This document shows, piece after piece, positions 6,675-45,242 of a stretch of 57,861 nucleotides of DNA. Positions within the stretch are counted from its first letter, which is position 1; every line of letters begins with the position of its first letter. The stretch is from Acidimicrobiales bacterium. GTDB lineage: Bacteria > Actinomycetota > Actinomycetes > Mycobacteriales > QHCE01. Both the position numbers and the translations under genes were made by a program. The stretch lies in contig QHCE01000080.1 in assembly GCA_003243955.1 (NCBI GenBank), positions 1 to 57,861 on the forward strand, written 5' to 3'. A model generated the notes under the pieces. The model did no database searches. It was given only the letters and a program-made list of their open reading frames with translations, and was not told where the DNA came from.

Positions 6675-7907
6675 GTGTCTAAGGCCGAGCGTGAGATAGT
6701 TTTCGTCGACGGAGTGCGCACACCCTTCGGCAAGGCTGGCCCGCGCGGCCTCTATACCCATACCCGCGCCGATGACCTAGTGGTTCGCTGTATCCGCGAG
6801 TTACTGCGGCGCAATCCCAGCCTGCCGCCAGAACGCGTTGCTGAGGTTGCTATCGCGGCCACCACTCAGACTGGAGACCAAGGGCTCACCATCGGGCGTT
6901 CGGCTGCGCTGCTAGCCGGCCTGCCCCGCAGCACGCCGGGCTATGCCATCGATCGAATGTGCGCCGGTAGCCTCACCGCGGTAACGACCATCGCCGGGGC
7001 TATCGCGCTGCGTGCCGTTGATGTCGGGATCGCTGGCGGGGTGGAGCATATGAGCCATCACCCCATGGGTGATGGGGTCGACCCCAACCCCCGGTTCGTG
7101 GCGGAACAACTGGTGGATGAATCCGCTCTGGTCATGGGTGCCACCGCCGAAAATCTGCACGACCACGACTCTTCGCTGACCCGAGAACGTGCTGACGCCT
7201 ACGCATACGCCAGCCAGCGCAAGTATGCGGCGGCGGTCGCGACCGGGCGCATCCAGCCAGACTTGGTTAGCATCGCTACCCGCGACCCTGAGCTCGGCTG
7301 GGGTTTGGCCACAGCCGACGAACAGCCACGGCCGGATACGACTGTCATCGCGTTGGCAGGGCTACGCACGCCGTTTCGTCCTCACGGCCGGGTGAGCGCG
7401 GGTAACTCCGCCGGCCTCAACGACGGCGCGACCGCCTGCTTGATCGCCGCCGCCGAGGCCGCCGCGGAGCTGGAGCTGCCAGCGGCAATGCGGCTGGTCT
7501 CCCATTCGTTCGCCGGGGTGGACCCCGAGGTGATGGGCATCGGCCCTATCCCCAGCACCGAAAAGGCTTTACACCTGGCCGGGCTGAGCATAAACGACAT
7601 CGGTTTGTTCGAACTCAATGAAGCATTTGCCGTGCAAGTGTTGATGTTCCTGCAACACTTCGGTATCGCCGACGACGACCCTCGGGTCAATCCGTGGGGC
7701 GGCGCACTAGCGATCGGCCATCCGCTGGCGGCTTCCGGCGTCCGGCTGATGACCCAGCTAGCACGGCAGTTCGAGCAACGCCCCAATGTTCGATACGGCC
7801 TGACCGCACTATGTGTGGGTTTGGGGATGGGCGCCGCCGTGATTTGGGAAAACCCACACTACGCCGACGATATGCGGCCAGATGCGACAAAGGTAGGTGC
7901 GCGATGA
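6675..7907 (+). CDS. Acetyl-CoA C-acyltransferase (thiolase, FadA-like)
   Basis: Thiolase that cleaves 3-ketoacyl-CoA with CoA, the last step of beta-oxidation. The catalytic features are IDRMCAGSLTA (nucleophilic Cys, about residue 92), NEAFAVQ (His/Asn-region loop), GGALAIGHPLAASG (catalytic His) and LCVGLGMG (second Cys) near the C-terminus. The true start is the GTG at 6675, with a CAAGGAGA ribosome site six bases upstream; the ORF-track start at 6639 lacks one. The stop overlaps the next start (ATGA), so it is coupled to the FadB-like gene and likely forms the alpha2beta2 trifunctional complex with it (inference). Confidence 0.93.
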   Translation: MSKAEREIVFVDGVRTPFGKAGPRGLYTHTRADDLVVRCIRELLRRNPSLPPERVAEVAIAATTQTGDQGLTIGRSAALLAGLPRSTPGYAIDRMCAGSLTAVTTIAGAIALRAVDVGIAGGVEHMSHHPMGDGVDPNPRFVAEQLVDESALVMGATAENLHDHDSSLTRERADAYAYASQRKYAAAVATGRIQPDLVSIATRDPELGWGLATADEQPRPDTTVIALAGLRTPFRPHGRVSAGNSAGLNDGATACLIAAAEAAAELELPAAMRLVSHSFAGVDPEVMGIGPIPSTEKALHLAGLSINDIGLFELNEAFAVQVLMFLQHFGIADDDPRVNPWGGALAIGHPLAASGVRLMTQLARQFEQRPNVRYGLTALCVGLGMGAAVIWENPHYADDMRPDATKVGAR

Positions 7908-9988
7908 GCGTCGAGTTCCCAGACGAGCTGATAGCTCACGCGCTCACTCGCTACGTTCAGCCTTTTGGTCTAGAGGGAGAGATCGCGCTGGTGACGCTGG
8001 ATAATCAGCGTGACCACACCAAGCCCACCAGTTTCGGCCCCGCTGGGTTGCGCGGCCTGGGTGCGGCACTCGACGCAATCGCAACGCGCACGCCGAGTGT
8101 GCGTGCTATTGCTATTACCGGAAAGCCATACATTTTCGGTGCCGGAGCGGATGTCACTGGCATGCCGACCCTGCGCAGTCAGGAGCAGGTCCGTGAGGTC
8201 GGTCGACTTGGGCACGAAGTCTTCAGCAAGCTACGTGACTCTGCGATACCCACCTTCGCGTTCATTAATGGCCTGGCACTCGGTGGGGCGCTAGAGCTGG
8301 CGTTGCATTGTCACTACCGAACGCTCTCGGGTGGAGCACGCGCCATTGCACTACCTGAATGCTCCATCGGTCTGGTGCCTGGCTGGGGCGGTTCGTGGTT
8401 ACTGCCACACCTGATCGGCCCAGAGCAGGCAATCCGGGTAATTATTGAGCACCCATTGAGCCAAAACCGCATGCTCACATCGCAGCAGGCACATCGGCTC
8501 GGAATCGGCGATGCGCTGTTCGAACCGGCCGACTTTCTGGAACGCTCGTTGGAATGGGCAGTAAGCGTGCTCAATGGCGAGACCGTGATAACGCGCGCCC
8601 CAATCACCGGTGGTCCGGAATGGAACCTTGCCGTGACGGTGGGCCGCAAGATCGTCGACGAGCGGCTGCACGGCGCGGTCCGGGCGCCACTGAAAGCTTT
8701 GGAGCTGCTACAACTGGCGAGCACCGCCGGTTATGCCGAGAGCGCGGAAGCCGAGACGCAGGCACTTGCCGAGCTGCTCATGGGTGACGAGTGCCGGGCA
8801 AGCCTGTACGCGTTCAACCTGGTGCAGCACCGTGCGAAGCGTCCAGTCGGAGCACCGGCCGCTTCGCTCGCTCGTTCGGTCACCAAGGTAGGCGTGGTGG
8901 GAGCCGGGCTGATGGCAACCCAGCTGGCCGTGCTGTTTGCGCGCCGCATGTTAGTGCCAGTGGTGATGACCGACATAAACCCCGAGGCGCTGGCCGCTGG
9001 TGTGGCCCGTGCCCATGCTGACATCGACAGGCTCGTCGAGAAGAAACGGCTGAACAGCATTGCCGCATCGCGGATCAAGCGCTTAATCAGCGGCTCGGCG
9101 GACCGAAGTGACTTCGCCGATGCCGATCTGGTGATCGAGGCGGTGTTTGAGGAGCTGGATATCAAGCGGCAGGTCTTCACCGAGCTTGAAGAGATCGTGA
9201 CACCCGAATGCGTACTGGCCACGAACACCTCCTCGCTCTCGGTGAGCGCTATGGCTGAGCAGCTTCGGCATCCGCAGCGAGTCGTAGGGCTGCACTTTTT
9301 CAATCCCGTCGCCGTGCTACCGCTGGTGGAAGTGATCCGCGGCGAACACACCGATGACGCAACGCTAGCCACGGCATTCGCGGTGGCTCAACAGTTGAAG
9401 AAGTCCCCGGTTGGCGTGCGGGACGCCACCGCGTTCGTAGTGAATCGGGTGCTGTTGCGCTGCATGAATGAGGTCCTTGCCGCGATCGATTCCGGCACGG
9501 ACGTCGCAACAGCCGATTCCGCACTCAACCCGCTAGGCCTACCGATGTGCCCGCTTGCCTTACTGGATCTGGTCGGGTTGCCGGTCGCCCTACATGTATT
9601 GCAGAGCCTGCATGGTTCTTTCAGCGAGCGATTTCCTGTGTCAGCGACGCTGCGCCGTGCGGTAGATCTGGGCAAAACTTCGCTGCTGACCTGGCGAAAT
9701 GGTGTGCGGCACCTGGATCCAGATCTAGTCACTGCCGAGCGTGTCTCTGAGGCCCTTACTTCTGACCAGCTCCGTGATCGGGTGTTGGTGGCACTAGCGC
9801 AGGAAATAGGGCTGATGCTCGACGAACAGGTGGTGAGCGAAGCCGCCGATATCGACCTGTGCATGCTGCTGGGCGCGGGCTGGCCGTTTTACCTCGGCGG
9901 CATCACACCGTACCTGGACCGCACCGGTATCTCCGAGCGAGTTATCGGCCGGCGGTTCCTTCCCGCTGGTGTGGCCACCGCCCCATAG
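7904..9988 (+). CDS. FadB-like enoyl-CoA hydratase/3-hydroxyacyl-CoA dehydrogenase
   Basis: Bifunctional beta-oxidation enzyme, 694 aa. The N-terminal crotonase domain (about residues 1-280) has the oxyanion-hole segment GKPYIFGAGADVTGM and FINGLALGGALELALHC with the catalytic Glu region. The NAD-binding domain starts at KVGVVGAGLMA (about 325). The motif VVGLHFFNPVAVLPLVEV follows, and two C-terminal 3-hydroxyacyl-CoA dehydrogenase repeats end in GGITPYLDRTG. It starts four bases inside the thiolase stop. Its last seven codons (RFLPAGV) are duplicated 0.94 kb downstream, marking an insertion. Confidence 0.94.
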   Translation: MSVEFPDELIAHALTRYVQPFGLEGEIALVTLDNQRDHTKPTSFGPAGLRGLGAALDAIATRTPSVRAIAITGKPYIFGAGADVTGMPTLRSQEQVREVGRLGHEVFSKLRDSAIPTFAFINGLALGGALELALHCHYRTLSGGARAIALPECSIGLVPGWGGSWLLPHLIGPEQAIRVIIEHPLSQNRMLTSQQAHRLGIGDALFEPADFLERSLEWAVSVLNGETVITRAPITGGPEWNLAVTVGRKIVDERLHGAVRAPLKALELLQLASTAGYAESAEAETQALAELLMGDECRASLYAFNLVQHRAKRPVGAPAASLARSVTKVGVVGAGLMATQLAVLFARRMLVPVVMTDINPEALAAGVARAHADIDRLVEKKRLNSIAASRIKRLISGSADRSDFADADLVIEAVFEELDIKRQVFTELEEIVTPECVLATNTSSLSVSAMAEQLRHPQRVVGLHFFNPVAVLPLVEVIRGEHTDDATLATAFAVAQQLKKSPVGVRDATAFVVNRVLLRCMNEVLAAIDSGTDVATADSALNPLGLPMCPLALLDLVGLPVALHVLQSLHGSFSERFPVSATLRRAVDLGKTSLLTWRNGVRHLDPDLVTAERVSEALTSDQLRDRVLVALAQEIGLMLDEQVVSEAADIDLCMLLGAGWPFYLGGITPYLDRTGISERVIGRRFLPAGVATAP
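9954..9975 (+). repeat. Direct repeat, fadB 3' end, left copy
   Basis: GGTTCCTTCCCGCTGGTGTG plus GC inside the last codons of fadB. It recurs with one mismatch at 10896-10917. The two copies bound a 0.94 kb segment. Confidence 0.85.
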
Positions 9989-9998
9989 ACGGCCTAGA

Positions 9999-10738
9999 TC
10001 ACTTTTTCCTTGCCCTTACGTTCCGTAAGACTCCTCTTCCGACAGCACTAGCACTAGCTGCCACGGCCGCCACTGCGCTTCGAGCCGAAGACTGTAATGG
10101 AGAGGAGGCTGTGCTTGTGGTGGATGCGTTAAAGGGATTGTCTGCTCCATAGGCCTCCACCACCCTTCGTAGCTGACGTAAGGAGATTTGCGCTGGTGTG
10201 GAATCGGCACCCGTATGGTGGGGTGCAGGGAAAACTGGGGGTCGTACTTGCTCTTTAAGACGGGTGTTCAATGGCCTTTGTGTCAAAAAAGAATTCATGA
10301 TAAGAGCATCTACGTCTCTAATACGCTCCGAAAGTGGATATTCCGCGGAAGGCCTATCTGGGATTTTTGCTGCTGGTTCCGGAGCAGGAGGGCCATATGC
10401 GACCGCATAATTTTGGCGCATTTCTCCAACGAATCCTTCATAACGATCAAAAAAATCTTGCGCTGCGGTTGTATACCCTTTCCGGAAAGGCCGGAAACTT
10501 CTTGGCCCCCGATTTGGCCCGGCTCATATATTCCCCCGGTTTGACTGGGAGCAGATATAGGCCACCCGAGATCCTTTATGGGGGCACCACCGTAATCAGC
10601 TGCATATCTTTCTACAACAAAATCAAGGTCGCCGAGCAAAAGCGTTCGCAGATCCTCGGTCGAAGGGAGGGCCCTAATACCTGCTGCCAGGTTTCTTTGG
10701 GGAGGGAGGCTCTCGCGAGGACGCGTCGGTTGGGTCAT
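9999..10738 (-). pseudogene. Frameshifted gene of unknown function
   Basis: Two overlapping minus-strand reading frames join into one 246-residue protein if one T is added to a run of seven T (10449-10455). The first part starts at the ATG at 10738 with AGGA eight bases upstream and reads ...GIQPQRKIF. The second continues DRYEGFVGEMRQNYAVAYGP... and ends in an Ala/Ser-rich, basic tail (GRGVLRNVRARKK). No family is recognised and there is no signal peptide or membrane segment. The slip site is U UUU UUG, a legal -1 frameshift heptamer, so programmed frameshifting, gene decay or an assembly error are all possible. The gene fills the segment bounded by the fadB direct repeats and is more AT-rich than its neighbours. 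Confidence 0.6.
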
Positions 10739-10895
10739 GCTAGATCCTAACGCTAGTGCAGTAAACACGATTTTTGTGATGTTACATGACGGGTGAATAA
10801 TCTTACGGGAAAACGCGGCATCAATCGCTTTCGTCCCGCCTTTCAGGCTGTATCGCACCCCATTTCGCTACATCCGTGGCAGAATCACCTCTAAA

Positions 10896-10917
10896 GGTTC
10901 CTCCCCGCTGGTGTGGC
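10896..10917 (+). repeat. Direct repeat, fadB 3' end, right copy
   Basis: GGTTCCTCCCCGCTGGTGTG plus GC. Read in the fadB frame, the flanking bases give RFLPAGVASC then a stop, compared with RFLPAGVATAP in fadB. So it is an alternative, diverged fadB C-terminus, not a chance match. Its stop overlaps the mazF stop codon on the other strand. Confidence 0.8.
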
Positions 10918-10923
10918 GAGCTG

Positions 10924-11268
10924 TTAGATATCGATCATTGTGCGTAACACGGCCCGTGTCTGCACCACCTGCTCTGACGTGAGTTCGTAGATAGGGGCGC
11001 TACCGGTGAGTCGATTGGCGGAGACGGTGCGTTGCTGTTCCGTGATTGCATACGCCGGTCGCTTATCGGGTATGTCGATGCGAATCCGGTGCAGCAGGTG
11101 CGGCCTTTCCCGGGTAGTCAGCGGCATAATCGTGAGAACTGTAGAGCGGGTCAACCGCAAGTGGAAATGTGAGGAAACTACAAGCACAGGACGAGCACCG
11201 GCCTGCTCGTGACCGACAACAGGGTCGAGCTTTGCCCACCATATCTGCCAGGGAGCAAACGCTCTCAC
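10924..11268 (-). CDS. MazF/PemK-type mRNA interferase toxin
   Basis: Type II toxin, 114 aa, an endoribonuclease of the PemK/MazF fold. Family features are the N-terminal WQIWWAKLDPVVGHEQAGARPVLVVSS (G-x-E-x-x-x-x-RP), the conserved ITEQQRTVSANRL motif (Gln-Arg-Thr typical of the RNA-cleaving site) and a terminal helix. The GTG start at 11268 overlaps the antitoxin stop (GTGA), as expected for a coupled toxin. The gene ends exactly where the duplicated fadB 3' end lies on the opposite strand. Confidence 0.9.
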   Translation of the reverse strand: MRAFAPWQIWWAKLDPVVGHEQAGARPVLVVSSHFHLRLTRSTVLTIMPLTTRERPHLLHRIRIDIPDKRPAYAITEQQRTVSANRLTGSAPIYELTSEQVVQTRAVLRTMIDI

Positions 11269-11531
11269 GCTGCGGCCTCACTTTCCCAAGGATCCAAGGG
11301 CGCTGCGTCGAGGGCTTCTACTTCGCCCAGCTCTGCCATGTAGTCCGCGTAACCGGCGGGGTCTTCTCGGCGAAACCGTTCCATGGCGGCGAGAGCCTGT
11401 CGTTCCCAGTGCTCATCGGCGAGTAGCTGGAGGGCTTCATCCGCGGTTACCCCGCCGTAGTCCTCAGCCGCAATTTTCATCACACGCTCACGGGTAGCTG
11501 GGCTTACTCGCATCATGGTAGTGGCCGTCAT
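11265..11531 (-). CDS. Antitoxin of the MazF-type module
   Basis: Small acidic antitoxin, 88 aa from the ATG at 11531, which neutralises the adjacent MazF-like toxin and likely represses the operon. The N-terminal MRVSPATRERVMKIAAEDYGGVTADEAL looks like a ribbon-helix-helix-type DNA-binding domain. The C-terminal part (AMERFRREDPAGYADYMAELG) resembles a toxin-wrapping tail. The ORF-track start at 11579 runs through the promoter; 11531 is preferred because TATACT sits exactly six bases upstream. Confidence 0.82.
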   Translation of the reverse strand: MTATTMMRVSPATRERVMKIAAEDYGGVTADEALQLLADEHWERQALAAMERFRREDPAGYADYMAELGEVEALDAAPLDPWESEAAA

Positions 11532-11560
11532 GCTTAAAGTATACGGTGTGTTATACGAAC
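11532..11560 (-). promoter_or_regulatory. Leaderless promoter/operator of mazEF-like operon
   Basis: On the minus strand: TATAAC-ACACCG-TATACT-TTAAGC-ATG. TATACT lies where a -10 box would place the transcription start on the ATG. The duplicated TATAC element could also be an operator for the antitoxin (inference). Confidence 0.5.
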
Positions 11561-11606
11561 CGTCTAGCGCAGCGAGCACTCAACAAGATGGACGCCGATC
11601 CTCATA

Positions 11607-13189: not shown

Positions 13190-15453
<2,264 letters not shown>

Positions 15454-15595
15454 CTATCGGGCGGGGCTACTCCTGCGTTGCCCTGCTTACCGATGCACAC
15501 GGAAGAGTCAGGTGTAGTAGGCGTGGGCACGGTGTTCAACGCGGGTACTGAGCCGTTCGTTACTAAGTCAGCCCGAAAGTAGCTGAATTTGCAGG

Positions 15596-15868
15596 TCAAA
15601 AGGCTGCACCAGTCCAGCTACTTTCGATCTGATTAGTAATCAGGATGGTGTGGGCGTCGTGGTCAAGGCTGTAGATGATGCGCCAGTCGCCTCGTCGAGC
15701 GGCGTAGTGTCCGTGGAGTTCCCAGCGCAGTGGTTTCCCGACTATGGTGGGGCGGTGACGTAGCGAGCTGAGAGTAAATTCGATGACGGCAACGGCGATT
15801 TTTTCCGGAGTGCGGTCTAGGTGCCGCCGGGCCGAGGAGGAGAAACGAATCTGCCACGATTCATCCAT
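15596..15868 (-). CDS. RelE/ParE-family toxin
   Basis: Type II toxin of 90 aa with the RelE fold, expected to cleave ribosome-bound mRNA. It begins WQIRFSSSARRHLDRTPEK, contains PLRWELHGHYAARRGDWRIIYSLDHDAHTI, which matches the usual L-G-x-x-x-x-R-x-G-x-x-R-I-x-Y core, and ends in a short hydrophobic tail. Its ATG overlaps the antitoxin gene by eight bases. It lies between gap and whiA, two genes that stay close in relatives. Confidence 0.88.
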   Translation of the reverse strand: MDESWQIRFSSSARRHLDRTPEKIAVAVIEFTLSSLRHRPTIVGKPLRWELHGHYAARRGDWRIIYSLDHDAHTILITNQIESSWTGAAF

Positions 15869-16160
15869 GAGGGTTGATTACTCGTCCGCTGCGTGCGGTG
15901 AAATCGTTGAGCACCTCACCGAGGCTGGCTGATTCACCTCGCCGGTACTCGACGACGCCGGCGTTGATGTCAGCCAATGCACCTTCTTGGCGAAGGGTGA
16001 CGAGGGTTTCCTCGATGGACTCCCACTCATCGACGCTGACCAACATCGCGGCGGGGTGACCGTTGCGGGTGACCATTACGCGTTGGTGGGTGCGCTCAAC
16101 TTCATCTACGAGCTCACTGAGGTGTGCGCGCGCTTCTTTTATCGGAACCACTACATTCAT
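15861..16160 (-). CDS. Phd/YefM-family antitoxin
   Basis: Antitoxin of 99 aa paired with the RelE-like toxin. The N-terminal Phd/YefM signature is VPIKEARAHLSELVDEVERTHQRVMVTRNGHPAAMLVSVDEWESIEETL. The C-terminal half is the acidic toxin-binding tail. The ATG at 16160 is preferred over the upstream GTG at 16166; TACTAT lies seven bases before it, consistent with leaderless transcription. Phd proteins usually bind their own promoter. Confidence 0.88.
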   Translation of the reverse strand: MNVVVPIKEARAHLSELVDEVERTHQRVMVTRNGHPAAMLVSVDEWESIEETLVTLRQEGALADINAGVVEYRRGESASLGEVLNDFTARSGRVINPHG

Positions 16161-16271
16161 GTACACAATAGTAGCCCTATTGAGGATCGATTACCTAGTA
16201 GGGCTTGTTGTAAGGGCGGCCGGCGAGACGGGGCCTGGCGCCTCTGCCGGGTAGCGCAAAGCCCAGCGGCG

Positions 16272-17252
16272 CTATTGCGCCAACATCTCCGGTGTCACAG
16301 CCGACTCAGTGTCGGCCATGCCAAGATCCCGCGCCCGCCTATCCGCCATGGCCAGCAGCCGCCGGATTCTTCCAGCGATAGCGTCCTTGGTCAGTGGCGG
16401 ATCAGCTAGCACGCCAAGCTCCTCCAACGAGGCTTGGCGATGCTCCAATCGGAGCCGACCAGCGATGAGTAGATGCTCCGGAGCATCGTCTGGTAGTAAC
16501 TCCATGGCCCGCTCCACCCGAGCGGCGGCGGCCACTGCGGCTCGTACTGAACGTCGCAAGTTGGCATCGTCGAAGTTAGCCAATCTATTGGCCGTAGCCC
16601 GCACCTCGCGGCGCATCCGACGTTCTTCCCACGCTAGTACGGCCGAATGCGCACCGATCTGGGTGAGCAGCGCACCGATGGTCTCCCCGTCGCGGATGAC
16701 TACGCGATCAACACCCCGCACCTCACGCGCCTTAGTGGCCACGCCCATCCGGCGTGCGGAGCCCACCAGCGCAAGTGCGGCTTCAGGCCCTGGACAGGTC
16801 ACCTCCAACGCCGACGACCGGCCGGGCTCAGTAAGCGAGCCATGCGCCAGGAAAGCGCCACGCCAAGCTGCGGTAGCGCAACACACTCCGGCTGAAATAA
16901 TCTGCGGTGGCAGCCCCCGCACTGGCCGGCCATGTGCGTCAATGAGACCAGTCTGACGGGCTAAATCGTCGCCGCCTTTAGCGACCCGCACGATGTAACG
17001 CGTATTTTTGCGTAACCCCCCCGGAGCGAGTACCGAAACCTCGCTGGGTCGCCCAAACACTTCAGCGATCTCATTACGCAGCCGCCGGGCCACATTTCCG
17101 GCATCCAGCTCAGCCTCTACCACCACGTGCCCAGCCACAATGTGCAAACCGCCGGAGAAGCGCAGCGCCGCGGCCACTTCAGCCCGGCGACAACACGACT
17201 TGGTGACGCTCACCCGACTCAGCTCGTCCTTGACTGCTTCGGTCATTGCCAC
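16272..17252 (-). CDS. whiA: Sporulation/cell-division regulator WhiA
   Basis: DNA-binding regulator, 326 aa, conserved in Gram-positives. In Streptomyces it acts with WhiB to control sporulation septation, and in non-sporulating relatives it influences division. The N-terminal LAGLIDADG-like half has [18 protein letters not shown] and [17 protein letters not shown]. The C-terminal helix-turn-helix contains [30 protein letters not shown]. Start GTG at 17252; an internal ATG two codons later is also possible. It stands in the conserved uvrC-rapZ-yvcK-whiA order. Confidence 0.95.
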
Positions 17253-31632: not shown

Positions 31633-31781
31633 GGGACCAGGGGACCTCTCCAAGCAACTTCCAGCCGGCACAACCCGGCGCCCAACCATGGTAACCAGGC
31701 GGTTGGAGTAGGTCAGGATCGGCTGCCTATCGACGACGGCGAACCGCGACTCCCCAGCAATCTCGGCTGACCGCGGCCTTA

Positions 31782-31901
31782 CAACATGGTGCACGATTGC
31801 AAGCTACTGCCATCATCGTCGATGAAACGACCAGGTCAGTGGCAGCGCATTTTTGCCAAGTTCTCCTAACTTGGCAAAAATTTTTATCGTGCACCACCTC
31901 G
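31782..31901 (-). mobile_element. MITE family 1, copy 1
   Basis: A 120 bp element flanked by TTA on both sides (31779-31781, 31902-31904). Terminal inverted repeats are CGAGGTGGTGCACGAT and CAACATGGTGCACGAT. The centre has TTTTTGCCAAGTT-CTCCT-AACTTGGCAAAAATTTTT, a symmetric terminator-like hairpin. It lies in the ctaB/tkt gap, inverted relative to copies 2 and 3. It codes for nothing. Confidence 0.88.
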
Positions 31902-31947
31902 TTACAAGAGACTCCTACCATCAGCAGCGCTGGCTAGAGCTTAATAC

Positions 31948-39003: not shown

Positions 39004-39993
39004 ATGACCGTACTCACTGACACTTCCGGTAAGGAAGTATTGGCCGCACTTAGCGCGGCACGCACGAGTAGAGGCGGCGGCGCGTCTGGACTTGCGTTAA
39101 CGCTGGTTGTCGTCGCCGAAACCGATGCGGTTGACAGCGCCACGAGCTCGGCTTGTGTGGCCGCACAGGCACATCCGTGCAGGCTCATTATGGTCACTCG
39201 CGAATCTCCGACTGATGCCAACTATCGATTAGACGCTGAGATCTGTGTCGACGGTCGGCTCGGCACCGGAGAAACAGTGATTCTGCGAATGCACGGTCGA
39301 CTTGCCTTACACGCCGAGTCGATCACGCTGCCGCTGCTCGCGCCGGATGTTCCCGTGGTGGCTTGGTGGCAAGGGGTACCACCGGAGAAGATCGCCCGTG
39401 ACCCGCTTGGGGTATTCGCCGACCGACGTGTCACCGACTGCTCGCAGCACCCCGATCCGCTGACAGCTCTGCACCAACGCGCGCAGGATTATCGTCCCGG
39501 CGACACCGATATAACGTGGACACGAACCACGTCATGGCGGTCGCTACTGGCCGATGCCTTCGACACGATCGACGCGCAACCCGCCTCGATCGAGGTTCAC
39601 GCGCCGGTCGGTAACGCTAGCGCCGCATTGCTAGCGGGATGGCTGCAAAGCCGGCTGGGGGTCGTGGTGCGGTGTGGTCTGCCAGCCGATGATGAACCGG
39701 AGATCAGCGGAGTCACCGTGACGCTCCACGACGGCTCAACACTGACCCTCAAGCGCGAATCACCAAACTCGGTTGTCGTCCAGCAGACAGGTGGCGCGGC
39801 ACAGCAGCTACCGCTGGACCAACCCAGCGTCTGCGACGCTCTCGCCGAGGAACTGCGCCACCTTGACCCAGACCAGCCGTACGCGGCCGCGCTGCAAACA
39901 GCTACCGGCGTAGCGGTGGCCGGCGCTGACTACAGCGCCGCGGCCCGGATACATGAGTGGCACGATCCCGAGTTATCGGCGCCGGCTTCATGA
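39004..39993 (+). CDS. opcA: Glucose-6-phosphate dehydrogenase assembly protein OpcA
   Basis: Allosteric activator or assembly factor for Zwf, 329 aa from the ATG at 39004. The conserved middle region reads HPCRLIMVTRESPTDANYRLDAEICVDG, LHAESITLPLLAPDVPVVAWWQGVPPEKIA and VFADRRVTDCSQHPD. The track start at 38929 lies within zwf coding sequence and would add 25 residues. No clear ribosome site helps; 39004 is preferred by homology to MIIDL..DT-type N-termini. Confidence 0.92.
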   Translation: MTVLTDTSGKEVLAALSAARTSRGGGASGLALTLVVVAETDAVDSATSSACVAAQAHPCRLIMVTRESPTDANYRLDAEICVDGRLGTGETVILRMHGRLALHAESITLPLLAPDVPVVAWWQGVPPEKIARDPLGVFADRRVTDCSQHPDPLTALHQRAQDYRPGDTDITWTRTTSWRSLLADAFDTIDAQPASIEVHAPVGNASAALLAGWLQSRLGVVVRCGLPADDEPEISGVTVTLHDGSTLTLKRESPNSVVVQQTGGAAQQLPLDQPSVCDALAEELRHLDPDQPYAAALQTATGVAVAGADYSAAARIHEWHDPELSAPAS

Positions 39994-40006
39994 GTGCGGT
40001 GTCGTC

Positions 40007-40810
40007 ATGAGCGGCACCCACGTCGTAGTCCATCCGAGCGGGCAGCTGTTGGCCGAAGCCGCGGCCGCACGGCTGCTGGCACGTCTAGCTGACGTACAAG
40101 CCGCACGCGGCGTAGCTAGCCTGGTATTAGCCGGGGGCGGCGTCGTAATACAAAGCTTGGCGGCGATGAAAGCTAGCCCCGCTCGGGATGCGGTGGACTG
40201 GAGCCGCGTTGACGTGTGGTGGAGTGACGAACGTTTTCTCGTCTCCGGTGATCCGCAGCGGAACGAGACCCAAGCTCGACGCGCACTGCTAGACGCAGTC
40301 GCACTCAACCCCGACCGAATACATCCGATGCCAGCTGCCGTGTCCAGCATGCCCGACGCTGAGGGCACGCTCGGCACAGCACCCCACAACAGCTCGGCCG
40401 ACGACGGTGCAGCCGCCTACCGCGACGAGCTGGCTCGGCAAGCAACACCTGGTAAACAGCTGCCGCAGTTCGATGTCTTACTTCTGGGGGTCGGTCCCGA
40501 GGGACACACCGCTTCGATCTTCCCCGAATCACCGGCGGTGCACGAACAGCGGCCAGTCGTCGCGGTACACCGCTGCCCCAAGCCGCCGCCAACCCGGATC
40601 ACCATGACGCTGCCGACGATTTGCAGTGCGGAAGAAGTGTGGTTGCTCGCCGTCGGAGAGCCCAAGGCTGCCGCCATCGGGATGGCGTTGAGCGGGGCGG
40701 GTGAAGCACAGATACCGGCGGCAGGGGCACGCGGCCAGCTGCGGACGCTATGGCTACTGGATCGAGCCGCGGCCGCTGAAGTTCCAGCGCAGCTGCGCAC
40801 CCCGTGGTAA
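40007..40810 (+). CDS. pgl: 6-phosphogluconolactonase
   Basis: Hydrolyses 6-phosphogluconolactone, second step of the oxidative branch; 267 aa from the ATG at 40007. Motifs include LVLAGGGVVIQSLAAM (sugar-phosphate loop), VDVWWSDERFLVSGDPQRNETQARRALL, LLLGVGPEGHTASIFPESPAV and PPPTRITMTLPTICSAEEVWLLAVGEPKAAAI. A 15-residue loop (SSMPDAEGTLGTAPHN) lengthens the middle. Its last eight codons are duplicated 1.9 kb downstream. Confidence 0.95.
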   Translation: MSGTHVVVHPSGQLLAEAAAARLLARLADVQAARGVASLVLAGGGVVIQSLAAMKASPARDAVDWSRVDVWWSDERFLVSGDPQRNETQARRALLDAVALNPDRIHPMPAAVSSMPDAEGTLGTAPHNSSADDGAAAYRDELARQATPGKQLPQFDVLLLGVGPEGHTASIFPESPAVHEQRPVVAVHRCPKPPPTRITMTLPTICSAEEVWLLAVGEPKAAAIGMALSGAGEAQIPAAGARGQLRTLWLLDRAAAAEVPAQLRTPW

Positions 40811-40827
40811 CACTGGCCGTGGCAGCA
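40775..40827 (+). repeat. Direct repeat, pgl 3' end, left copy
   Basis: 53 bp covering the last codons of pgl, its TAA stop and 17 bases after it. It matches 42650-42704 except for four substitutions and a 2 nt insertion. Confidence 0.9.
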
Positions 40828-40874
40828 CGGCTAACGCCTTGCGGGGCGCTCACAATTCCACAGTCGGATCGTCC

Positions 40875-41037
40875 ATGCCACACTACGATTCACTCCTGGC
40901 AAAGAAGGTGCTCTTGTCCGCCGAGAAAATGCACGCCGACGAGGTGGCCGTACTACCAGAACACCAACCCTGCGAGCGCGATGAGTGCCAGGCACGTAAT
41001 TGATGAAGTCCTCGCCGAGCACCAGCACACCGCATGA
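40875..41037 (+). pseudogene. Small frameshifted gene after pgl
   Basis: A plus-strand ATG at 40875 reads MPHYDSLLAKKVLLSAEKMHADEVA. The protein-like continuation YYQNTNPASAMSARHVIDEVLAEHQHTA-stop lies in another frame and joins if the frame changes near 40945. The result would be a short helical protein of about 53 residues of unknown family. Without the shift the first frame ends CERDECQARN at 41003. Confidence 0.4.
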
Positions 41038-41123
41038 AACGGATCCACCGCTTGGTAAGGGTTGGCTGGCCACGTTCGCAGGTGTTTGACTTGTTCTACT
41101 GCAAAATCAGGCTTTCTTGGTTA

Positions 41124-41244
41124 CGAGGTGGTGCACGATAAAAATTTTTGCACAAGTTCTCTTAACTTGGCAAAAACACGCTGCCGCTGAACTCGTCGTT
41201 TCATCGACGATGATGGCAGTAGCTTGCAATCGTGCACCATGTCG
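41124..41244 (+). mobile_element. MITE family 1, copy 2
   Basis: 121 bp, flanked by TTA (41121-41123, 41245-41247). Termini CGAGGTGGTGCACGAT and ATCGTGCACCATGTCG form a 16 bp imperfect inverted repeat. The internal hairpin reads TTTTTGCACAAGTT-CTCTT-AACTTGGCAAAAA with one bulged base. Nearly identical to copy 3. Confidence 0.9.
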
Positions 41245-41311
41245 TTAGGCAATCCGGGTTGATGTCCCTGACAAGGTGAATCATCGGCGTTCAATGAGAT
41301 CGGAGATGAGC

Positions 41312-41878
41312 ATGGGTAGAGTCATTGTGACGGAGTTTGTTTCCCTCGACGGGGTCATGGAGGCTCCCGGTGGCGAGCCGGGATACGCACATTCGGGATG
41401 GACGATCCCCTACCACGATCCCGAGCAAATGAAGTACAAGCTAGACGAGACCCAGGCAGCACAAGTGCTGCTGCTAGGGCGAAAGACCTATCAGGGGTTC
41501 GCCGAGGCATGGCCCGAACACGACGACGAGGCTGGATTCGCCCAGAAGATGAACACAATGCCGAAGTTCGTCGTCACCACTACCTTGACCGACCTCGAGT
41601 GGCAGAACTCGACTGTGCTCCCGGGTCCGATCCAGACTTCGATACCTCGGCTGCGGGAGGAGATCGACGGGGAAATCCTGGTCCACGGTAGCCGGACACT
41701 GGTGCACTCATTGCTCCGGAACGGACTCATCGACGAGTTGCGGCTGATGATCTTTCCCGTAATCCTCGGCTCAGGTGCCCGGATCTTCCCGGACTCACCG
41801 GATGCGATCGCCCTCGAACTGGTCGATCACCGTCGATACGCCTCAGGCGTCGCGGTGCTCACCTATCACCCGCGATGA
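41312..41878 (+). CDS. Dihydrofolate reductase/RibD C-terminal family protein
   Basis: 188 aa from the ATG at 41312, with GGAG six bases before. RVIVTEFVSLDGVMEAPGG, LLLGRKTYQGFAEAWP and ILVHGSRTLVHSLLRNGLIDELRLMIFPVILGSGARIF are typical of the stand-alone RibD-C/DHFR-like reductases. The cognate substrate of these enzymes is generally unknown. It is cargo between the two pgl 3'-end copies and is not part of the conserved operon. Confidence 0.9.
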   Translation: MGRVIVTEFVSLDGVMEAPGGEPGYAHSGWTIPYHDPEQMKYKLDETQAAQVLLLGRKTYQGFAEAWPEHDDEAGFAQKMNTMPKFVVTTTLTDLEWQNSTVLPGPIQTSIPRLREEIDGEILVHGSRTLVHSLLRNGLIDELRLMIFPVILGSGARIFPDSPDAIALELVDHRRYASGVAVLTYHPR

Positions 41879-41962
41879 CCTGTCGCTCGCCCCGCGGAGT
41901 GCTAGCGTGGTTGAAATCTTAACTGTAGATACCGAGCCGGAAGGCTCCGTAAGGAAAATGCT

Positions 41963-42595
41963 ATGCCGGACGGACCAGACGACAAAGAGTGGGTCCGTAA
42001 GTTTGTTTGTGACCTTTGGGGGCCAGAGGTCACAAACAGTTTCACCAACAATCAGCTCCCGCTCCTAAGATTCTATGACAGCGTTCGTGACGGTGACATA
42101 CTTCGCGGCGACCGCGTGGGAGTTTGGCATGTCATCTATAACCGTTATAACGAGGATAAGGATAGGGCTCCGAATCCAATATGGGATGCGGCTGTATGCG
42201 TGAGCGGACGACGCAGCTGCGCCGTAGTATTTCCAGACCTTGTAGGTTCCACCCTTACTGTGGATGATGTCGGCTGCCAGGTTTACGTCCTAGGAAGGGT
42301 CCATAACAGCGAGATAAAGGCGACGGGCCGTGACTCGCAGGTCCATCTATTAGGACCGGTGAGCGGCACTTCTAGGATTCGGGTCGACCGTTACACCACC
42401 CTCCATGACAAGGAACCGGGCGTGATCTTCCGAGGCGAGCGAGAGCCAACGCCTGGCCATCTGCGGGAGCTTGTGCTGCCGCCCCTACGACCGCTTTTTT
42501 CAGCTGCCGATCTGCCCCCAAAACGGCCACGTTCGCCGTTACCCTCCGCGGCGTGGCGGCTGTTATCTGGAGGAAACCATGGGCGGCGCCGCTAA
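41963..42595 (+). CDS. Unknown protein, lower-GC, in the pgl-flanked cargo
   Basis: 210 aa, ATG at 41963 with AAGGAAA upstream. No family recognised. It has no signal peptide or membrane segment. The middle, STLTVDDVGCQVYVLGRV and SEIKATGRDSQVHLLGPVSG, has the regular short strands of a beta-solenoid or beta-helix; the C-terminus is basic and Pro-rich (PPKRPRSPLPSAAW...HGRRR). Base composition is visibly lower in GC than the pgl operon. Near its start the coding sequence forms an 11 bp hairpin (42005-42037). Confidence 0.6.
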   Translation: MPDGPDDKEWVRKFVCDLWGPEVTNSFTNNQLPLLRFYDSVRDGDILRGDRVGVWHVIYNRYNEDKDRAPNPIWDAAVCVSGRRSCAVVFPDLVGSTLTVDDVGCQVYVLGRVHNSEIKATGRDSQVHLLGPVSGTSRIRVDRYTTLHDKEPGVIFRGEREPTPGHLRELVLPPLRPLFSAADLPPKRPRSPLPSAAWRLLSGGNHGRRR

Positions 42596-42649
42596 GGAAC
42601 GTGGCTTGTCCATTTCACGGGTTGAGCTGTGATGTCAGGTCGTTGCAGC

Positions 42650-42704
42650 GCTGGAGTTCCAACGCGCAGCTGCGCACTCCGTGGTAGCGCTGGCCGTGGC
42701 AGCA
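42650..42704 (+). repeat. Direct repeat, pgl 3' end, right copy
   Basis: 55 bp orphan copy of the pgl end, still reading AQLRTPW-stop in its last codons. Differences from pgl include ACC/ACT and TAA/TAG, which are silent. It bounds a 1.8 kb segment. Confidence 0.9.
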
Positions 42705-42713
42705 AACCCCGAA

Positions 42714-42914
42714 CTAAGCCTCCTCAGGCTTTAGAAGCTGTCGGGAAATCTCGCGTACCTGCTGCACAGCGGCAGGTACTGGCATGGCGGCGTTTTCTGG
42801 TGGCGCCGATGGTGGTGTTGTGCCAGATGGCGACAGCCATGCTAGGAGTCGCTGGCCGATGCGGGCAATAGACTGGCGACCAGCGCTGTATACCTCTGTT
42901 TGTGGACGTTGCCC
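42714..42914 (-). pseudogene. Open frame abutting MITE copy 3, in frame with abiEii
   Basis: An uninterrupted 66-codon minus-strand frame starts directly after the left TTA of MITE copy 3 and ends at TAG: ...SAGRQSIARIGQRLLAWL... to ...REISRQLLKPEEA-stop. If the MITE and one TTA are removed it follows the abiEii stop in the same frame. It has no start codon of its own with a ribosome site. It may be a former C-terminal extension or a coincidence. Confidence 0.35.
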
Positions 42915-42917
42915 TTA

Positions 42918-43038
42918 CGAGGTGGGGCACGATAAAAATTTTTGCACAAGTTCTCTTAACTTGGCAAAAACACGCTGCCGCTGAACTCGTCGTTTCATCG
43001 ATGATGATGGCAGTAGCTTGCAATCGTGCACCATGTCG
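42918..43038 (+). mobile_element. MITE family 1, copy 3
   Basis: 121 bp, flanked by TTA (42915-42917, 43039-43041). Differs from copy 2 at a few bases (for example CGAGGTGGGGCACGAT). The right TTA is the stop codon of the AbiEii toxin gene, read as TAA on the minus strand. Confidence 0.9.
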
Positions 43039-43965
43039 TTAGATCGAAAGTGCTGACCAACAGCGGCTTGTGGGATTCCAGGTTCCCGGATCAGCATGGC
43101 TCAATAGTGGAGTGACGAACGCATCGGCTGCTACGGTTGCATCATGAAGCGTTTGACAACCCCGTAATCCGACTACATCTGCAGCCGCAGCGGGATAGTT
43201 CTGTCTCCAAGAAGAAAGGGCGGGAATCTCAAACCGCCTTGGCATTCGCAAATCGGTGCCGATACCGATTCGTCGTCTCTGCTCACTATTCAGGGCAACT
43301 TGTACAGCGCGACCAATGATAGGTTCCTGTTGCGAGATCAGCAGTAGATCGGCCAGATCTCGGTATCGAGTAGACGGGCTGGCGCCGTAAGAACGCCAGT
43401 GCCACTCATACATTGCACAGATCTTGTCAGCAAGGTGGTCCGGGAGCGGATATAGCAGTATCTTGGGCCAATCATTCGGCCAAGGCAGCGGTACAGTCGG
43501 TTCAAGCTGCACGGCCATGGGTTCCGCAGTCGGCATACGACGAACAACCAGGTCCACGTTGGCTGTGTCCATCTTCCGGTTCCCGAGTAGGACATCAAAC
43601 GTCATCTGAGCGCAGTCGGCTTCATCTGCGTGACGCGCCGGCCGCGTTTCGACGAACGCAAAGTAGTCGCCCAGATCTCTATGTGCTGCGCACCGAAGCG
43701 TGTTAACTGCCTCGTTCAGGTCGTCAAGTCCAGGCCTAATTAGGTCAATATCTCGGCTATAGCGCGCCTCACCCGGATAACGCACTAGCAGCGCCTGGCC
43801 CCCTTTCAACATCCAGCCTGGTTCTTGAAAAACTCGGGCCAGTAAGCGTTGAAAGTAGAAGTGTCGCGTCACATCTTGGGTATTTATTCCGAGTCGGCGA
43901 GCAACGCCTTGGGCTCGAGACTTCAACGCCGCTTCTAATGCCGATGGTGTCTCGTACATATTCAC
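43039..43965 (-). CDS. AbiEii nucleotidyltransferase toxin (type IV TA)
   Basis: 308 aa, toxin of the AbiE abortive-infection/type IV toxin-antitoxin system. The N-terminal half carries GWMLKGGQALLVRYPGEARYSRDIDLI, with the GG and DxD nucleotidyltransferase motifs. A mid-domain PLPDHLADKICAMYEW and TRYRDLADLLLI segment follows, and the C-terminus DPGTWNPTSRCWSALSI matches the family's closing motif. The start is GTG at 43965 overlapping the antitoxin stop (TAGTG); ATG at 43959 is also possible. Its stop is a duplicated MITE target site. Confidence 0.9.
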   Translation of the reverse strand: MNMYETPSALEAALKSRAQGVARRLGINTQDVTRHFYFQRLLARVFQEPGWMLKGGQALLVRYPGEARYSRDIDLIRPGLDDLNEAVNTLRCAAHRDLGDYFAFVETRPARHADEADCAQMTFDVLLGNRKMDTANVDLVVRRMPTAEPMAVQLEPTVPLPWPNDWPKILLYPLPDHLADKICAMYEWHWRSYGASPSTRYRDLADLLLISQQEPIIGRAVQVALNSEQRRRIGIGTDLRMPRRFEIPALSSWRQNYPAAAADVVGLRGCQTLHDATVAADAFVTPLLSHADPGTWNPTSRCWSALSI

Positions 43966-44981
43966 TACTGACCAATATAGTCTTTGGACCTGCTCCCCTT
44001 TGGCCGTTTTCGCGACCTAACCGCAAGGGGTCCAATGCCGGGTATTGCTGAGGCTGCCATCCGCTGGATGGAAGGAACCATAAATTGAGATCCTAGATTG
44101 CGGGTTACTTCCACAAGAGCGGGGATAACGGCTAACTTCTGGATTGTCTCCATGGTGGAAGGGATAGTCACCGAAGTGCTGATTCTGCGGATTGCCTCAG
44201 TAAACGCAGGGTCGTCGCCAAGAGAATGGAGAGCTTCAAGGCCGGGGTTGCCTACTAACGCGAGCTTGTAGCCCTCAACGAGTCCCGTGAGGGCGGCCAT
44301 ACTGGTACTTTCACGGACGCTATCGCACTCAAGCCGTTGACCAGCTTGCTCGACCAGGGCGCTCAATAGCTCGTCTCCCGAGGCTTCAGCAAGCGCATAC
44401 TTGGGGGCGAATCTGGAAATCCGCTCCGCTAACGAATCTAGATCCACCAGGTTTCGTCGCTCTGCGTTAGCGATGACGCCGCCAACATGGCCAGCGTCGG
44501 CGCCATTCCGCATCAAGTCCATTACAGTCCGTGTCACCGTCGTAACCGGTAGGCCATCGACGATCGTGACATCCTCAGGGTCAAGCCGCTCAATATGTAG
44601 CCGGATCCCGAGCTCACGGGTCGTTCGCCGGCGCGGGACCGTCAGCTCAGTTTCCGGGGCTGGAATGTCTCCCAACTCGTGCACTAAGCAGGCAGACCGG
44701 TGCGAAACTACCCCATCATCGACACCCAACCCGGTCCGTCTCCACGCTGGTCGGCTCGGATCAAGACGCAGCCAGGCCACCCGGCTCTCCAGATGCGAAG
44801 GCGGTGACGCACCTGTCACCCGATACACACCTCTGCCGACGTTCTGCAGTAGCTGTGCCTGGCATAACCGCAGTTGGGTCACCCGGTCGACGCTACGAGC
44901 GGCAGCTTGCGCTGCTGTGACTAAACCGGCTTGATCCGCAGCTATTTCAGCTAAAGCTCGGAATGCTTCATCTCGCTTCAT
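43965..44981 (-). CDS. AbiEi-family antitoxin
   Basis: 338 aa from the ATG at 44981, partner of the AbiEii toxin. The N-terminal winged helix (FRALAEIAADQAGLVTAAQAAARSVDRVTQLRLCQAQLLQNVGRGVYRV) matches AbiEi antitoxins that repress their own operon. It is followed by the AbiEi core (SHRSACLVHELGDIPAPETELTVPRRRTTRELGIRLHIERL, TRTVMDLM). The C-terminal 120 residues are not typical: a helical stretch with repeated PSxM/PGxG patterns ending in a basic tail. The ORF-track start at 45068 lies within the promoter. Confidence 0.88.
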   Translation of the reverse strand: MKRDEAFRALAEIAADQAGLVTAAQAAARSVDRVTQLRLCQAQLLQNVGRGVYRVTGASPPSHLESRVAWLRLDPSRPAWRRTGLGVDDGVVSHRSACLVHELGDIPAPETELTVPRRRTTRELGIRLHIERLDPEDVTIVDGLPVTTVTRTVMDLMRNGADAGHVGGVIANAERRNLVDLDSLAERISRFAPKYALAEASGDELLSALVEQAGQRLECDSVRESTSMAALTGLVEGYKLALVGNPGLEALHSLGDDPAFTEAIRRISTSVTIPSTMETIQKLAVIPALVEVTRNLGSQFMVPSIQRMAASAIPGIGPLAVRSRKRPKGSRSKDYIGQ

Positions 44982-45040
44982 ACAGCAAATATAACACTTA
45001 TTTGCAGCAATAGTTACGGATGAATGAAACTTTTGCTGTA
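44981..45040 (-). promoter_or_regulatory. abiE operator/promoter
   Basis: Perfect 9 bp inverted repeat TACAGCAAA (44981-44989) and TTTGCTGTA (45032-45040), with a related TTTGCAGCAA between them. TATATT lies six bases before the abiEi ATG, so the inner arm overlaps the leaderless promoter. This layout fits AbiEi autorepression (inference). Confidence 0.6.
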
Positions 45041-45242
45041 AGCAGTTTGGTTGGCTTTCTAGTATCAAACTACCGGTGACCAGCTTGCCATCCCCGAGGT
45101 TGTGGTAGGGGTAGCCGAACCTCTGCCGAGACGCAGAATATTAGAGTTATCAAGGACACTGTATGGGTGAATCCGGAGGACACCGGCCATGCAGCTATCA
45201 GACTTACAGGAAATAGGCCGATTCGGGTCCTCAGGCTAAACG

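Follow-up and report, generated by a model that had tools for sequence, protein, structure and literature searches.

Bacterial genes expressed through -1 frameshifting include dnaX and the orfA/orfB pair of the IS3 family, in which an in-frame X_XXY_YYZ heptamer lies within a same-strand overlap of two frames and the shift goes in the -1 direction. In Escherichia coli, 61% of such heptamers shift above background even without stimulators, although the efficiency is then at most about 10 times a background of about 0.05% (PMC4066793). Transcriptional slippage usually takes place on A or T runs of about 9 or more (PMC1088944). Single genes that change frame and have no relatives were also collected in the GeneTack survey, where overlapping genes are expected to make up 33% of the orphan frame-shifted singletons, with sequencing errors and indels sharing the remainder (Antonov et al. 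2013, PMC3711429).

The entry of foreign DNA behind a conserved gene has been described as well. Genomic islands that use site-specific recombinases are found at gene 3' ends, with the 3' end duplicated on both sides and the host gene intact. In homology-facilitated illegitimate recombination, one end of the incoming segment has a homologous anchor and the other is joined illegitimately (PMC3240628), and a comparable scheme, in which the 3' end is displaced, has been invoked for the T6SS immunity arrays of Vibrio (PMC5361080). A homologous anchor combined with an illegitimate far end gives exactly the order of host gene, donor segment and displaced host tail.

The window analyzed here is a stretch of 57,861 nucleotides from the genome of an Acidimicrobiales bacterium (GCA_003243955.1, contig QHCE01000080.1). 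It carries, on the minus strand, two open frames that a preliminary description had presented as the halves of an unknown gene joined at a U UUU UUG slip site, with programmed frameshifting, transcriptional slippage, recent decay and assembly error as the options (Table 1). According to our analysis, they are best read as one orphan coding region of about 245 codons, foreign to the genome, inserted behind fadB and broken in its frame by an indel of the single-nucleotide class, and we give this reading a probability of roughly 0.55. The insertion, which duplicates the tail of fadB, is more interesting than the slip site and merits follow-up itself.

Table 1. Features of the fadB insertion and its surroundings in the window (an asterisk in a peptide is a stop codon).
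Feature	Position	Strand	Remarks
fadB-type 3-hydroxyacyl-CoA dehydrogenase/enoyl-CoA hydratase	7694..9988	+	Intact; insertion site at its 3' end
Proximal copy of the 22-nt repeat	9954..9975	+	In the fadB 3' end; reads FLPAGVA
Insertion interior, 920 nt	9976..10895		GC 0.525, below every sampled same-length stretch of the window
C-part, orphan	9999..10454	-	151 codons plus stop in the -1 frame; ATG first occurs at 10421
N-part ORF, orphan	10310..10738	-	ATG 10738; about 95 codons to T7, then 47 zero-frame codons to the stop at 10310 (142 codons in total)
T7 run, candidate slip site	10449..10455	-	10455-10449 in reading direction; U_UUU_UUG, in frame with the ORF upstream
Distal, displaced fadB 3' end	10895..10927	+	Contains the repeat at 10896-10917; reads RFLPAGVASC*
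PemK/MazF-like toxin gene	10924..11268	-	Adjoins the insertion; overlaps the displaced fadB end with its stop
Small gene, probable antitoxin by position	11265..11579	-	Upstream of and overlapping the PemK/MazF-like gene; no Pfam family

The elements on which the slip-site proposal had been built are present. The heptamer was found in the frame of ATG 10738 (minus-strand triplets CAG CGC AAG ATT TTT TTG ATC GTT ATG AAG around 10440-10470), and the -1 frame does stay open for about 150 codons, with no stop from T7 until 9999. In the 920-nt segment, the open runs of this strand reach 185 and 174 codons, and their summed length, as well as the single-shift composite of 289 codons, exceeds that of dinucleotide shuffles of the segment (p=0.001 in both cases), therefore the segment codes or once coded. 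An AGGA motif lies six nucleotides 5' of ATG 10738. A codon model matched to the local GC of third codon positions gave z scores of 1.59 for the N part and 2.76 for the -1 frame, whereas the zero frame past T7 scored 0.27, in agreement with the earlier remark that it loses protein character there. The competing plus-strand ORFs did not outscore random sequence (z -0.23 and -3.67). The coding score is weak and no relatives appeared in any collection searched, which would suit open frames that arose by chance in a segment that never coded on the minus strand; considering the frame lengths, the AGGA motif and the poor scores of the rival strand, this is very improbable. A weak codon-usage signal is what foreign DNA would show.

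The scores of the N part, the -1 frame and the zero frame support a single protein whose reading changes from one frame to the other within 10440-10499. This interval holds 97% of the frame-switch posterior, and less than 1% lies downstream of 10440. However, 71% of the posterior falls in 10470-10499, upstream of T7, so the run is one among several possible switch places. The coding statistics lend weak support to the reading of both parts as one unit near T7. A perfect 14-nt palindrome, CCTTTCCGGAAAGG, is located just 5' of T7 (about 10475-10490), within the stretch of highest posterior, and could possibly be an indel-prone site.

The C part has its own ATG at 10421, preceded by AAGGATTCGTTGGAGAA, and this purine-rich upstream sequence makes a second overlapping gene possible. 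The locus would then consist of two genes translated by coupling, an N ORF spanning 10738-10310 (142 codons) and a 140-codon C ORF, or of one gene and a chance frame. The overlap of the frames exceeds 100 nt and, as mentioned above, overlaps are expected to account for about a third of the orphan frame-shifted singletons (PMC3711429). Nevertheless, the -1 frame is already coding-like upstream of this ATG (10454-10422, mean 0.287 per codon), the zero frame carries no coding signal past T7, and a switch downstream of 10440 has a posterior below 0.01, which makes this arrangement unlikely.

Concerning the heptamer itself, a programmed slip at U_UUU_UUG is not supported. The motif is present, yet it is unremarkable, as at least one in-frame X_XXY_YYZ is expected by chance with a probability of 0.39 in a 214-nt overlap of the same composition and of 0.12 in 60 nt; a second heptamer, A_AAG_GGT, is found nearby at 10481. 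Folding of 67, 97 and 127 nt downstream of T7 and of 91 nt across the site showed no stimulatory structure (z -0.25 to 1.26, pseudoknots being outside the model), and no SD-like motif of the list in PMC4066793 was found 6-17 nt 5' of T7 or anywhere in the upstream 30 nt. A search against Rfam returned no element at the locus. The locus shares with dnaX and orfA/orfB the in-frame heptamer, the same-strand overlap and the -1 direction but, unlike them, it presents no stem-loop, upstream SD-like element, conserved family or similarity to transposases or DnaX. Programmed frameshifting or slippage at this site would produce a full-length fusion beside the 142-residue product. The heptamer does lie in the correct frame and direction within the overlap, and many heptamers shift in E. 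coli without stimulators; but given the low efficiency of such unstimulated shifts, the chance-level motif, the lack of homologues that conserve it and a switch-point weight that falls mostly upstream, this explanation is highly doubtful. Transcriptional slippage on T7 fares no better, the run of 7 being shorter than the usual length. Hence, the proposal that a slip site joins the two halves was not borne out and, as a frameshift claim, the locus is ordinary: a single orphan gene with a chance-level heptamer and no conservation.

A break at or near a homopolymer, in a draft assembly of 91 contigs and 94.8% completeness, also raises the question of a consensus or assembly error in the 7-base run, in which case the gene of the organism would be intact and encode one protein of about 245 residues. 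However, no comparable break was seen in about 30.9 kb of long, mostly conserved genes of the window. The remaining two T7 runs of the window lie in intact conserved genes, encoding an inositol monophosphatase and a UbiA-type prenyltransferase, and several further T7 runs elsewhere in the genome sit in long intact ORFs; systematic errors at T7 runs were rejected on this basis. An error at this one site is improbable, and decay is the best reading of the one-nucleotide-class indel. We infer one ancestral gene that would have arrived on a foreign fragment and then most likely lost its frame through an indel at or just upstream of T7. The break would most likely reflect a genuine mutation of a weakly constrained gene, and U_UUU_UUG would be incidental or merely a mutation-prone run. 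Among the options of the preliminary description, recent decay by a frame-shifting indel is therefore the one that fits best, with the switch near T7 and no stimulators, but the data do not fix the break on T7 itself, 71% of the posterior being upstream.

Neither half matched sequences of Pfam, PHROGs, NCBIfam, PADLOC or PDB, and no relatives of either were found in viral contigs, phages or plasmids, nor among several hundred genomes at the order and class level. The N part had no relative in contigs of named GTDB genomes. Weak and discontinuous matches, such as one in genome G131 with stops inside (E 5.6e-4), were dismissed as chance. Single-sequence AlphaFold2 models were too poor to be the basis of a fold search, with a pLDDT of 34.6 (N ORF) and 59.7 (C part). 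Like the GeneTack orphan singletons (Antonov et al. 2013, PMC3711429), the locus is a lone gene with no homologue and a single frame transition, and no difference from them excludes it from that group.

Both frames lie inside a 942-nt unit flanked by a 22-nt direct repeat (9954-9975 and 10896-10917), identical at 21 of 22 positions. The genome contains no further copy, even at three mismatches, and none is expected in Markov shuffles. The proximal copy is the native 3' end of fadB, RFLPAGVATAP*, and the distal one reads in frame AGG TTC CTC CCC GCT GGT GTG GCG AGC TGT TAG, with a silent CTT/CTC difference at Leu. The FadB tail aligns across relatives, mostly as RFLPxGVASxP, and a second copy of it within 1.5 kb was seen in 0 of 28 relatives (best match, 16/22). 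With the native tail before the insert and a displaced tail in frame behind it, the insertion thus entered at the fadB terminus, with the working end of fadB kept. The insert contains only the orphan frames. An element with a site-specific recombinase is not supported, as there is no recombinase in the insert and no common attachment sequence (the 22-nt site is unique in the genome), and inspection by eye revealed no integron cassette or attC site.

The insertion sits in the interval between fadB and the thiamin pyrophosphokinase gene (tpk). In G001, the sole genome of the same family compared, this interval is syntenic but its contents differ, with genes that we take, from reading their sequences, to be acyltransferase-like and ferritin-like, and an unrelated orphan of 1130 aa; therefore, the interval is variable. 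Kinship of the orphan halves with the 1130-aa protein, which occupies the same slot, was rejected by BLASTP. This protein (L095:7170-10562) has a weak APH-like match at residues 864-962 and is absent in the other 40 genomes searched. The window holds three modules of the toxin-antitoxin type: PemK/MazF-like (10924-11579), ParE with Phd/YefM (15596-16166) and AbiEii/AbiEi (43039-45068).

A second case was found in the same window, at 40787-43042. The 3' end of the 6-phosphogluconolactonase gene (39953-40810), at 40787-40827 and encoding QLRTPW*, is repeated at 42664-42704 (38/41), and the insert encloses a RibD_C gene (41276-41878) and an orphan (41963-42595). A separate interspersed repeat of about 128 nt occurs in this part of the window (41121-41248 and 42915-43042) and also at 31776-31909; it has inverted-repeat ends (TTACGAGGTGGTGCACGAT...ATCGTGCACCATGTCGTTAG) and about 20 good matches across the genome, and it looks like a MITE or REP-like element.

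A protein-level scan of gene tails against other actinobacteria was noisy, with low-complexity Arg/Gly/Pro tails, so a DNA-level test was used instead. In 2.36 Mb of the genome (sampled loci, with overlaps between neighboring stretches counted in), 24 of 79 short repeat pairs combined a copy at an ORF 3' end with a partner downstream, compared with 3 in the mirror arrangement of a 3' end with the copy upstream, 5 of a 5' end with the copy upstream and 7 of a 5' end with the copy downstream. The same four arrangements accounted for 1, 0, 3 and 2 of 46 pairs in 0.99 Mb of other actinobacterial loci, a set in which many species represent a single syntenic region. The excess over the mirror controls is solid, but its size is approximate because of this single-region control set and of rows that could be tandem paralogues (L195, L185, L286).

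Once rows were merged, about 20 loci presented a gene tail duplicated behind an insert, for example L216:1399-4416, L292:4483-6247, L289:7773-9768 and 14482-16554, L269:10304-14529, L287:17814-18760 and L253:12023-15651. Most copies are in frame to the stop with silent or near-silent differences, as behind genes of 1023, 901 and 387 codons, and the host genes include those of GcvT and a proteasome subunit. The cargo comprises AbiE toxin-antitoxin genes, a Fic-domain protein, MFS transporters, a methyltransferase, an acetyltransferase, an arginase-family protein and family-less proteins; no recombinase was detected among 18 cargo proteins from the other tail-duplication loci.

The architecture at fadB fits homology-facilitated illegitimate recombination. 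Recombination anchored on the 3' end of fadB would bring in a foreign, GC-poor fragment; fadB would keep its intact end ahead of the insert, and a displaced duplicate of this end would lie on the far side. The duplicated host 3' end, with its silent difference between RFLPAGVATAP* and RFLPAGVASC*, corresponds to such an anchor; a circular donor that integrated by a single crossover would leave an identical arrangement. As in the described cases, a foreign gene lies behind a conserved anchor, the recipient 3' end has moved downstream and the insert has no recombinase. Unlike them, about 20 loci behind unrelated genes are affected in one small genome, and the repeats are only 22-200 nt long. With genomic islands at gene 3' ends, the locus shares the 3' end duplicated on both sides and the intact host gene, but here the targets are many and unrelated, the inserts measure 0.4-5.3 kb and the searched cargo proteins include no recombinase.

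It is a speculative and rather unlikely idea that this lineage has a dedicated or unusually active route that adds accessory genes directly behind conserved genes, the incoming segments being addressed by a copy of the 3' end of the target. If so, the host gene would stay intact, the displaced tail would mark the far side, and the fadB orphan would be one of about 20 insertions of a single or a few genes. Independently of this idea, duplicated gene tails are an easily scanned scar of the entry of accessory genes between conserved ones, and their several-fold excess over the mirror controls in this genome opens the way in which a little-known actinobacterial lineage gains genes to direct testing.
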